Shown: positions 9,793 to 30,838 of the stretch, piece after piece
How positions within the stretch are numbered: position 1 is the stretch's first letter
Layout of the letters: the number at the start of each line of letters is the position of its first letter
DNA from: Lysobacteraceae bacterium
GTDB lineage: Bacteria; Pseudomonadota; Gammaproteobacteria; Xanthomonadales; Xanthomonadaceae
DNA: 32,684 nt
NCBI GenBank assembly: GCA_024508915.1
Contig: JANINR010000082.1
Location: 1 to 32,684 of the forward strand
Direction of reading: 5' to 3'
The notes under the pieces: model-generated
Database searches by the model: none
The model's input: only the letters and a program-made list of their open reading frames with translations
Told to the model about the DNA's origin: nothing
Made by a program: the position numbers and the translations under genes

Positions 9793-9834
9793 GCGGTGAC
9801 CTTCCGAAGGCCTGTTTCCGGAGAACACGACACA

Positions 9835-10260
9835 ATGGCAGCCACCATCCGTTGCGACATCGTCAGCGCCGAGGCCGAGATCTTCCACGGCGAGGCGACC
9901 ATGGTCGTCGCCACTGGCGAGATGGGCGAGCTCGGCATCGCGCCGCGCCACGCGCCGCTGATCACCCGGCTGCGCCCCGGCAAGGTCGTGGTGACGACGC
10001 CCGAGGGCGAGCAGCTCGACTTCGCGATCTCCGGCGGCATCCTTGAGGTGCAGCCGCAGGTGGTGACGGTGCTTGCCGACACCGCGATCCGCGCAGAGGA
10101 CATCGACGAGGCGGCGGTGCGCGCGGCGAAGGAAGAAGCCGAGCGCATCCTCGCGCATCGCGGCGAGCAGATGGACGTGGCCGAGGCGCAGCAGCGCCTG
10201 GCCGAGGTCACGGCGCAGCTGCAGGCGCTGGAGCGCCTGCGCAAGAACCTCAAGCACTAG
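9835..10260 (+). CDS. atpC: F1Fo ATP synthase subunit epsilon
   Basis: Rotor-associated subunit that also inhibits ATP hydrolysis; 141 residues. It has the N-terminal beta-sandwich ([32 protein letters not shown]) and the C-terminal two-helix arm ([32 protein letters not shown]). The ATG at 9835 is preferred over the upstream GTG at 9796 because it has GGAG at 9820-9823 and gives the normal length. Last gene of the atp operon; a long palindromic element begins 10 bases after its stop. Confidence 0.96.
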
Positions 10261-10270
10261 TCTCGTCGCT

Positions 10271-10372
10271 GCGCCGGATGCGGACGCCTTGGGGGGCGAA
10301 TGTCCCCCGGCTCCGGCCTTCGGCCTGCGCCTCCTCCTTTATTTCGCCCCCCAAGGCATCCGCATCCGGCGC
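10271..10372. repeat. Long palindromic element, family 1, copy A
   Basis: The 30-base arms (10271-10300 and 10343-10372) are complementary at 29 of 30 positions and enclose 42 bases. The inner arm ends and core are shared with copy B: GGGGCGAATGTCCCCCGGC on the left and CCTCCTCCTTTATTTCGCC on the right. Between these is a private hairpin (GGCC-TTC-GGCC, 10315-10325). The outer arm sequence (GCCGGATGCGG...) is unrelated to copy B. It could act as a bidirectional transcript end for atp, or be a non-autonomous mobile palindrome; the sequence alone does not decide. Confidence 0.85.
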
Positions 10373-10427
10373 TCCGATCTGTTCGGTGGCCGGAAGAAGA
10401 GCGGGCGGCTGCCGTGTGGGTTCGGGG

Positions 10428-10521
10428 GTGGGAGCAGGAGGGCCCTGGGGCGAATGTCCCCCGGCAGCCGCTGCGCGGCTGCCTCCTCCTTTATTTCGCC
10501 CCAGGGCCCTCCTGCTCCCAC
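10428..10521. repeat. Long palindromic element, family 1, copy B
   Basis: The 27-base arms (10428-10454 and 10495-10521) are perfectly complementary around 40 bases. It has the same core, in the same orientation, as copy A 55 bases upstream. Both its outer arms (GGGAGCAGGAGGGCCCT...) and its inner hairpin (AGCCGC-TGC-GCGGCT, 10466-10480) have different sequences that are again self-complementary. Read on the minus strand the core contains ATAAAGGAGGAGG, which looks like a Shine-Dalgarno site, but no convincing gene follows it. Confidence 0.85.
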
Positions 10522-10577
10522 TCTCCACGTCACCGCGCATGCGATGCTTCACGCTCTTCACTCGGGGGGAGCGGGGC

Positions 10578-11708
10578 ATGCGGACGACGGTGGTGGCGGC
10601 GTGCGTGGTGGCTTGCGCGCTGGCGATGGGCGCGGCGCAGGCGGCGGAGCGGCCGCGGGCGCGGGAGGCGGGCGTGGTGGTCGGGGTCATGGCGACCGGT
10701 CCGCGCAATGCGATCGTGGACGTGCCGGGCGTGCGCGTCGGCCATGCGACGGTGATCGAAGGCAAGCGAGTCCGCACCGGCGTCACCGCGATCCTGCCGC
10801 ATGGCGGCGACCTGTATGCCGAGCGCGTGCCGGCGGCGCTGTACGTCGCCAACGGCTACGGCAAGCTGCTGGGCACGACGCAGCTGCGCGAACTGGGCGA
10901 GCTGGAAACGCCGATCCTGCTCACCGGCACGCTCGGCGTGTGGAAGGCGGCCGACGCGCTGGTCGACTGGCAGCTCGCGCGACCGGGCATGGAAAACGTG
11001 CGTTCGCTCAATCCGGTGGTCGGCGAAACCAACGATGGCTTCCTCAACGACATCCGCGCGCGTCCGCTGCGCCCGGAGCACGTGCGTGCGGCGCTGGCGT
11101 CGGCCTCGGCCGACAACGTGGAGGAGGGCGCGATCGGCGCCGGCACCGGAACGGTGGCCTTCGGCTGGAAGGGGGGCATCGGCACCAGTTCGCGCACGAC
11201 GCCGGCGGGTCGCACGGTCGGCGTGCTGGTGCAGAGCAACTTCGGCGGCACGCTGACGATCTCCGGGGTCCCGGTGGGCCGCAGGCTGCCCGATCCGGCA
11301 ACGCTCGCCGGCAGCATCGCGGACAAGCCCGTGGCCGATGGCGACGGCAGCATCATGATCGTGGTCGCGACCGACGCGCCGCTCGATCCGCGGCAGCTGG
11401 AACGCCTCGGCAAGCGCGCGATCCTCGGCCTGGCCCGCACCGGGGCGTCGATGTCCAACGGTTCGGGAGACTACGTGATCGCGTTCTCCACCGCGGCTTC
11501 CGTGCGCCGCCGCCAGGGCGAGCCGTTGCACCCCGCTGCGATCCTCGACAACGGCGAGATGGACGACCTGTTCGTCGGCGTCGCCGAGGCCACCGAGGAA
11601 GCGATCGACAACTCGCTGTTCAAGGCCGTGGACATGCGCGGCGATCGCGGGGCGGTGCCGGCGCTGCCGATCGACCAGGTGCTGCCGCTGCTGCGCGAAG
11701 CGCGCTGA
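10578..11708 (+). CDS. P1-family (DmpA-type) serine aminopeptidase, exported
   Basis: Member of the N-terminal-nucleophile DmpA/BapA group, which cleaves itself and releases N-terminal amino acids; 376 residues. The N-terminus is a signal peptide (RTTVVAACVVACALAMGAAQA, cleavage near residue 23), suggesting a periplasmic enzyme. Family marks are IVDVPGVRVGHATV, GAIGAGTGTVAFGWKGGIGTSSR and VQSNFGG. In DmpA the precursor is cleaved before the Ser that begins the SIIIVLATDAPL-like stretch; here that is GDG/SIMIVVATDAPL with Ser258 (codon 11349-11351). The ATG at 10578 is chosen because GGGGGAG lies 6 bases upstream and it starts the signal peptide cleanly. The natural substrate is unknown. Confidence 0.88.
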   Translation: MRTTVVAACVVACALAMGAAQAAERPRAREAGVVVGVMATGPRNAIVDVPGVRVGHATVIEGKRVRTGVTAILPHGGDLYAERVPAALYVANGYGKLLGTTQLRELGELETPILLTGTLGVWKAADALVDWQLARPGMENVRSLNPVVGETNDGFLNDIRARPLRPEHVRAALASASADNVEEGAIGAGTGTVAFGWKGGIGTSSRTTPAGRTVGVLVQSNFGGTLTISGVPVGRRLPDPATLAGSIADKPVADGDGSIMIVVATDAPLDPRQLERLGKRAILGLARTGASMSNGSGDYVIAFSTAASVRRRQGEPLHPAAILDNGEMDDLFVGVAEATEEAIDNSLFKAVDMRGDRGAVPALPIDQVLPLLREAR

Positions 11709-30220: not shown

Positions 30221-30772
30221 ATGCTGACGCGCGCCGCCATCGTCCTGCTGGTCGTCCTCAACCTCGGTGCGGGCGCGTGGTGGTGGCTGCATGCGCCCCC
30301 GGCGCCGGAGCCGCCTCCCGCACCTCCGCCGGGCGCGGCAAGGTTGCACCTGGCAGACGCTTCCACCGCCGCGGCCGTTCCGGCGAGCACGCCGAGCACC
30401 GCCGCCCCGACGAGCGCACCGCCGGCGAACGCGCCGCCGGAGAACGCGCCCCTGGCGGCGACAGCGTCGCAGGTGCCCGTGCCGGCCACGGTGGATTCGG
30501 ACGGCGCCTGCGAGGGCGGCGAGGGGCCCGCCGCGGGCTGGCGCGTCTACCTGCCGCGGTTGCCGTCGGCGGATGCGGCGCAGGCCATTGCCGCGCGCAT
30601 CGGCGAAGCCGGTTTCAGCGATTACCTGGTCGTGCGCGACGGCGCCGACGCGAACACGATCGCGCTCGGCCGCTACGGCAGCGAGGACGCCGCGCGCCGC
30701 CGCAGCGCCGCGTTGCGCGCGGCGGGCTTCCCCGCACGGTGCGCTAGAATCCCGCCAGCCACGCCGGCATAG
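30221..30772 (+). CDS. SPOR-like inner-membrane protein
   Basis: 183 residues. A short N-terminal membrane anchor (about 5-24, AAIVLLVVLNLGAGAWWWL) is followed by a long Pro/Ala/Thr linker. A C-terminal SPOR-type domain (about 106-172) has WRVYLPRLPSADAAQAIAARI, GFSDYLVV, NTIALGRYGSEDAARRRSAALRAAGF. SPOR domains bind denuded peptidoglycan strands at division sites. The last beta strand is not recognisable: the end ARIPPATPA is encoded by the tRNA promoter region, and the stop codon TAG (30770-30772) lies inside the tRNA-Thr gene. Confidence 0.82.
   Translation: MLTRAAIVLLVVLNLGAGAWWWLHAPPAPEPPPAPPPGAARLHLADASTAAAVPASTPSTAAPTSAPPANAPPENAPLAATASQVPVPATVDSDGACEGGEGPAAGWRVYLPRLPSADAAQAIAARIGEAGFSDYLVVRDGADANTIALGRYGSEDAARRRSAALRAAGFPARCARIPPATPA
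30745..30750 (+). promoter_or_regulatory. -10 box of tRNA-Thr
   Basis: TAGAAT 12 bases before the tRNA 5' end, located inside the SPOR-like coding sequence. No clear -35. It implies the tRNA can be made independently of the upstream operon. Confidence 0.45.
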
Positions 30773-30838
30773 CTCAGTTGGTAGAGCAACCGCCTTGTAA
30801 GCGGTAGGTCCCCAGTTCGAATCCGGGTGCCGGCACCA
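30763..30838 (+). tRNA. tRNA-Thr (anticodon UGU)
   Basis: 76 bases including an encoded CCA. The acceptor stem GCCGGCA/TGCCGGC is perfect, the D arm is GCTCAGTTGGTAGAGC, the anticodon stem ACCGC/GCGGT is perfect with loop CTTGTAA (anticodon TGT), and the T loop is TTCGAAT. One A-C opposition in the T stem is also present in E. coli tRNA-Thr(UGU), as I recall. It reads ACA and possibly other ACN codons. Confidence 0.97.

Follow-up and report, generated by a model that had tools for sequence, protein, structure and literature searches.

The question raised by this locus is how two neighbouring palindromes can share a core almost letter for letter when their outer arms are unrelated and the two arms of each copy still match one another. 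The palindromes, A and B, lie between an ATP synthase epsilon chain gene and a family S58 peptidase gene in the window we analysed, a 32,684-nt stretch of a Lysobacteraceae bacterium contig (all positions are those of the window; see Table 1). The common core was confirmed as two identical blocks, with GGGGCGAATGTCCCCCGGC found exactly at 10293–10311 in A and 10447–10465 in B, and GCCTCCTCCTTTATTTCGCCCC at 10329–10350 in A and 10481–10502 in B, and the outer arms of A and B are without similarity, as originally claimed. The arm-to-arm matches also hold, with 29/30 in A (30 nt from 10271, counted by eye; the inverted arms as a whole are 10266–10300 and 10343–10377, 35 nt, 91%) and 27/27 in B (10428–10454 and 10495–10521). 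The sole mismatch in these 30 nt of A is an A.C on the + strand, i.e. a G.T on the − or G-rich strand, and so belongs to the commonest mismatch class of the family described below. Both palindromes fold much better than 200 dinucleotide shuffles (z-scores of −9.7 and −12.0, with 0/200 shuffles as good), and on the − strand both have the order outer arm, GAAATAAAGGAGGAG, inner hairpin, CGGGGGACATTC, outer arm. The epsilon chain stop codon ends 10 nt ahead of hairpin A, a CGTC at 10264–10267 lies near the stem of A, and the start of the S58 peptidase was picked by eye within the ORF 10278–11708. The window also has a tRNA gene at 30763–30835 on the + strand (Rfam RF00005).

Table 1. Coordinates of the two hairpins and the adjacent genes in the window.
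Feature	Position	Strand	Remarks
Upstream gene, ATP synthase epsilon chain	9796..10260	+	Pfam PF02823, PF00401; start codon uncertain
Hairpin A, whole unit	10271..10372	- (G-rich strand)	Covariance-model match 10272-10371, strand -, 95.1 bits
Hairpin A, left outer arm	10271..10297	.	Similar arms in G002 copies
Hairpin A, core half GAATGTCCCCCG (G-rich strand CGGGGGACATTC)	10298..10309	-	
Hairpin A, inner variable hairpin	10310..10330	.	
Hairpin A, core half CTCCTCCTTTATTTC (G-rich strand GAAATAAAGGAGGAG)	10331..10345	-	
Hairpin A, right outer arm	10346..10372	.	
Spacer of doublet	10373..10427	.	55 nt between stem bases; 109 nt between core motifs
Hairpin B, whole unit	10428..10521	- (G-rich strand)	Covariance-model match 10426-10523, strand -, 94.9 bits
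Hairpin B, left outer arm	10428..10451	.	Arms pair 27/27 counting GAA/TTC of core
Hairpin B, core half GAATGTCCCCCG	10452..10463	-	
Hairpin B, inner variable hairpin	10464..10482	.	
Hairpin B, core half CTCCTCCTTTATTTC	10483..10497	-	
Hairpin B, right outer arm	10498..10521	.	
Downstream gene, family S58 peptidase	10578..11708	+	Pfam PF03576, E 3.5e-113

The core is not confined to this one site, as it would be in a local chance duplication, and occurs in many units of other genera. In the same genome, an exact-core search found seven units, and ten were picked up, in five doublets, with a covariance model based on 62 dereplicated units. The model matched at least 10 of 100 relatives, including at least six of the nine members of the genus (own genome counted, under strict filters), as well as, among 369 genomes sampled across the class, at least four (own genome counted; at E 1e-5 and scoring few candidates in each), and the exact core was present in 2/300 genomes of the order of genome G101 (centre included). 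A scan of the collection returned at least 119 stretches, many from Variovorax, and the other carriers among the matches listed were Hydrogenophaga, Ramlibacter, Pseudorhodoferax, Rhodoferax, Lysobacter, Pseudoxanthomonas, Stenotrophomonas and one Stagnimonas MAG. The carriers are some soil and water bacteria, and the taxonomic spread is patchy, covering the Xanthomonadaceae and Burkholderiales, with 1–166 exact cores per genome in 22 genomes that had all been picked as core carriers, the highest number being found in one Variovorax genome. Plasmid records gave matches in Variovorax and one Burkholderia, with a degenerate unit seen on a Burkholderia anthina plasmid (L185), and phage sequences searched with one hairpin query gave none. 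It should be noted that core-based searching overlooks degenerate units, and that G002 and Lysobacter sedimenti, and likewise G006 and a Lysobacteraceae MAG, are the same genomes and hence not independent samples. The repeat family is real and the window pair is one instance of it. A literature search by core strings and text, with subscription papers and preprints outside its scope, found no name for the family, and Variovorax is unmentioned in parts of two REP papers (PMC12306157, main text, and PMC3733652). Strings of the core do occur in published papers, and among the matches listed the titles concern subjects other than bacterial repeats.

Each unit is a hairpin of about 100 nt, in which the outer stem (medians of 30 and 27 bp, range 20–53) and the inner hairpin are both variable, with a conserved 11x8 internal loop between them. 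The loop motif on the G-rich strand is GAAATAAAGGAGGAG / CGGGGGACATTC, with AUAAAGGAGGA / GGGGGACA as the G-rich purine loop. Alignment of the copies bore out a palindromic family with a near-fixed core, free arms and preserved pairing: across 62 dereplicated units, 89.7% of cells in the whole structure are paired compared to 58.9% when shuffled, there are 639 double-change cells compared to 194 when shuffled and 144–190 with partners slid by 1–3 columns, and in the outer stem pairing holds in 90.3% of cells, 25/29 pairs having changed on both sides, the structure scored here having been drawn from that same alignment. A larger set of 160 dereplicated units, chosen under a ceiling on core mismatches, kept the ACA of columns 74–76 in 160/160 units and each of the GG doublets (columns 35–36, 38–39, 69–70 and 72–73) in 157–160. 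Notable variation within the G runs was found only at columns 37 (A 150, G 7, C 3) and 71 (G 147, A 13), and 23/28 deviations in the two five-base runs fell at the two middle positions. Columns 37 and 71 covary (G37 is found with A71 in 6/7 cases; Fisher p 5e-7, uncorrected for ancestry), as does the loop-flanking pair 29/77 (A-T 149, C-G 6, G-C 2, others 3).

The mismatches within the stems are strand-biased, and this is a new finding here. The unit sets used for the core, covariation and doublets were chosen partly by pairing which credits G.T, and their mismatches were kept out of this claim; we used instead 191 units selected by the core alone and counted mismatches over 25 inner positions of the stem, as seen on the G-rich strand. 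The 154 units of the Burkholderiales side, with which one Stagnimonas locus was counted, have G.T 340, A.C 11, G.A 329, C.T 11, G.G 39 and C.C 5, where much of the G.A comes from two inherited core-adjacent mismatches and some G.T positions are inherited too. The bias is weaker in the 37 units of the Xanthomonadaceae side, which is the window's own (G.T 34, A.C 10, G.A 30, C.T 9, G.G 30, C.C 9). After dereplication, G.T compared to A.C is 78 to 3 in the 36 units of the former and 28 to 9 in the 23 units of the latter. A mutation bias of one genomic strand is excluded because doublet members on opposite strands are both biased, with G.T:A.C of 122:10 and 113:3 for the two members of 57 inverted pairs. 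The G-rich strand is also predicted to be the more stable in 63/66 (RNA parameters) and 65/66 (DNA parameters) dereplicated units, and in 57/66 and 59/66, respectively, when the arms alone are folded. One specific single strand appears to be maintained for folding.

The original prediction was that simple copying of one element could not explain A and B, and this stands in so far as the arms do turn over, but A and B need not be arm-replaced copies; they are two arm subtypes of one doublet. The arms of A match copies in the congeneric G002 at 45/52 positions, and the best match of the B arms outside their locus is 39/52, with a copy in the same genome in flipped register. One arm pair is common to 11 units in G003, another is found in three of the four matches in G001, and two arm types recur amongst the Variovorax doublets. 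As the arms recur within lineages, they are inherited there and not random. Conservation of arms elsewhere had been named as evidence against the prediction, and A-like arms do recur in G002, with 7/52 positions differing; turnover is still seen. Within-unit arm pairing has a mean of 0.85 compared to a between-unit left-arm identity of 0.50 in units labelled Xanthomonadaceae, and 0.81 compared to 0.62 in the other group (the group labels are partly wrong).

Rewriting of the arms with symmetry kept, as had been proposed, can be seen at the orthologous site L005 (G000) and L133 (G006), which form one collinear alignment of 83% over about 3 kb. Here the arms of unit 1 are largely different yet paired, and an indel in one arm of unit 2 is mirrored in the other. 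At a second site, L243 (G000) and L137 (G006), the doublet lies directly behind a 5S rRNA gene (5S and 23S by Rfam); the flanks align directly (84% and 96%) and unit 2 aligns reversed, with similar arms and opposite cores. Judged from the alignment, this core inversion is as template switching between inverted arms would produce, and window B, which is a perfect palindrome in tandem with A, may have flipped likewise. The other route suggested originally, in which flanking DNA is captured as an inverted duplication, found no support at one Variovorax presence/absence locus, where the intergenic distance in genomes without the element is mostly 6–14 nt.

Template switching inside the hairpin fits the rewriting of the arms, and could be taken to suggest that the units are inert palindromes kept symmetric only by this process during replication (quasipalindrome correction), with no selection on a strand. 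The matched indel of L005 and L133 and the inverted unit behind the rRNA operon favour this. It also agrees with published reports that the arms of inverted repeats become homogenised, and the spacer between them inverted, through template switching (PMC8604942), and that RNA hairpins are maintained by the process (PMC8794818); our family shares with these arm homogenisation, spacer inversion and multi-base compensatory change. However, template switching alone is insufficient because it is strand-neutral whereas the mismatches are strand-biased (78 to 3 on the dereplicated Burkholderiales side), a difference from such hairpins which points to selection as well, and it does not give conservation of a 27-nt core across families. 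Inert palindromes are already disfavoured by the strand-bias counts, and we regard them as very unlikely.

Units are commonly found in pairs, with 111 outward, nine tandem and one inward by the orientation of the G-rich strands, plus 63 lone units, and the core-core gap is 100–127 nt in 86/111 outward pairs. The usual arrangement is therefore outward whereas the window doublet is tandem, with both G-rich strands on −. In Variovorax the doublet is about 260 bp with outward-facing hairpins, and L094 has an array of five units. Placement is intergenic: amongst 122 clusters, 21 are at locus edges, and the remaining 101 comprise 59 between tandem, 37 between convergent and four between divergent genes, plus one inside a gene (a home-made codon-usage script provided the gene calls for these and for the gene-end counts below).

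This placement bears on whether the unit acts as RNA, as a protein-binding or processing hairpin in transcripts (e.g. for a GGA-binding regulator, RNase III or a 3'-end stabiliser) that has been passively dispersed. G.U is tolerated, G.A mismatches occur, and the purine internal loop is conserved with covariation of the pairs on either side of it, all traits that structured RNAs typically have. The median distance from 135 facing gene ends to the element is 58 nt; one doublet sits within a probable operon, between two of its genes, and another, L243, comes after 5S rRNA. Against this, partnerless units have no orientation to transcription (15 sense, 13 antisense), the G-rich strands of A and B are antisense to both neighbouring genes, and any transcript of an outward doublet would read one unit from the C-rich strand. 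A known RNA family was also rejected, as no Rfam family matched the element at gathering score in the window or in six loci; weaker matches were mostly to microRNA hairpin models. We consider an RNA role rather unlikely.

A further suggestion is that the units are transcription terminators or bidirectional 3' ends, as they favour gene 3' ends and the window doublet comes after atpC, a place taken in G001 and G003 by an ordinary hairpin with T-run of terminator type (by eye). However, a T-run (5 T in 7 nt) within 10 nt past the stem was found on either strand in 0/191 units, and a separate terminator-like site lies ahead of the element at 16/135 facing gene ends (20/642 in the control, which includes operon-internal ends, so that the two rates are not directly comparable). 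One doublet is inside a probable operon, and terminators need no conserved internal loop. We regard this reading as very improbable.

Genomes differ in the presence of the element. After atpC, L189 (G006) retains a truncated unit in which one arm and half of the core are left and the side facing the next gene is deleted, and the other five members of the genus have no element in the 330 nt compared. The L059 doublet of Variovorax is flanked by a CoA-ligase/ATP-grasp gene on one side and a CoA-binding/CoA-ligase gene on the other (Pfam; read as sucC-sucD), and of 16 such loci inspected from 30 fetched, four have it whole, one has it partly deleted, one has the ends only and ten are without it. 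In the ends-only allele, L292 (Variovorax G812), the two doublet ends are joined at a 4-nt overlap, CGCC, in a join that looks like a microhomology deletion. No target-site duplication was found at the one Variovorax presence/absence locus examined.

Some units are associated with other repeats. L244–L253 and L219 (G003) are eleven near-identical single units within a longer repeat whose outer parts resemble GTAG-type REPs, several with sequences like GTAGGAGCGGCGGCAGCCGCGA (by eye), which suggests that the unit was captured by a REP mosaic and may ride on other repeats. In L145 and L147 (G002), tandem 24-nt copies of TATCCGGCGCCCGACGAATGTCCG lie right beside the second unit, and this repeat holds a piece resembling the core half CGAATGTCC. 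L256 and L260 (G035) have several same-orientation units in a row with drifting cores (GAACTC variants). A larger element spanning distant units was considered and rejected in the Ramlibacter L069 region, where units 4.5 kb apart have only about 170 nt in common.

The family appears to be a newly found relative of palindromic repeats already known from bacteria. REPIN/BIME elements are described (PMC3116915, PMC8266576) as intergenic, with tens to more than 100 copies in some genomes, inverted hairpin doublets with preferred spacing, and arrays, and REPs as being processed as folded ssDNA by TnpA-REP with conserved stem mismatches. Our family is likewise intergenic with a high copy number in some genomes, and has inverted doublets with preferred spacing and mosaics. 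It differs in its conserved 11x8 internal loop with free stems, in a unit of about 100 nt compared to 20–60 nt for REPs, and in the absence of a consistent GTAG or CGTC at the stem base, a tetranucleotide given as a REP hallmark at the stem foot in PMC3733652. Within 14 nt outside the stem base on the 5' and 3' sides of the G-rich strand (counts without a background rate), GTAG was found in 0 and 1 of 139 units of the Burkholderiales side and 0 and 0 of 78 of the Xanthomonadaceae side, CTAC in 2 and 1, and 1 and 1, CGTC in 6 and 1, and 4 and 9, and GACG in 5 and 5, and 4 and 10, respectively. There was also no linkage to a cognate RAYT. Mobilisation by RAYTs was rejected as a candidate when 0/18 PF01797 (Y1-transposase) loci with about 1.5 kb flanks, from 12/14 carrier genomes, were found to carry the core; PF01797 is absent from the unit carriers G000, G106 and G116, and is present in 41/60 relatives with or without units. 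We have not filed the family as a REP because the tags are rare, no RAYT is linked in 18 loci and the size differs.

Two other classes invite comparison. Integron attC sites function as one folded strand, with structure conserved beyond the stem sequence and unpaired bases setting the strand. By analogy, our family may also depend on one folded strand with structure kept over stem letters, but its outermost stem is the variable part. ERIC, Correia and BOX are MITE-like structured repeats, about 250-bp and intergenic, and the Variovorax doublets are similar as intergenic repeats of about 250-bp with inverted ends TTCAGGGCG, but the outer ends of the family vary between genera and no transposase was found.

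We therefore favour, with a probability of about 0.5, a reading in which A and B together make up one doublet of a REPIN/BIME-like family, dispersed and apparently non-autonomous, that is read as a folded single strand and mobilised, with arms template-switched and the fold selected. What is conserved would be the folded form of one strand, with a purine loop held between the long outer stem and the inner hairpin, and stem letters would be free provided they pair. A protein would recognise this folded single strand, most likely as ssDNA exposed at replication, and mobilise or copy the unit, in Variovorax as the outward-facing doublet. Template switching between inverted arms would rewrite them symmetrically and occasionally invert the core, and selection on the folded strand would keep the pairing, with wobbles tolerated on that strand. 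Counting against this are that no mobilising enzyme was found in the 18 RAYT-type loci or the PF01797 search of carriers, that GTAG/CGTC tags are rare and no target-site duplication was found, and that two loci, the one in a probable operon and the one behind an rRNA operon, leave room for action as RNA. More tentatively, it is possible that the element is defined by structure and not sequence, as a strand-selective hairpin in which stems are replaced by templated rewriting, the core flips in place, and the purine core might be a two-layer G-quadruplex/duplex hybrid (GGNGG - hairpin - GGNGG).

It is an old question how long stems evolve by compensatory change, and here one family offers, within and between genomes, many units that have the same core with rewritten stems, orthologous pairs, an inverted core and a built-in strand control. 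This makes it testable how much of the stem symmetry is owed to template switching and how much to selection. Should the folded G-rich strand be read by an enzyme, the family would be one more ssDNA-hairpin system beside RAYT/REP and integron attC.
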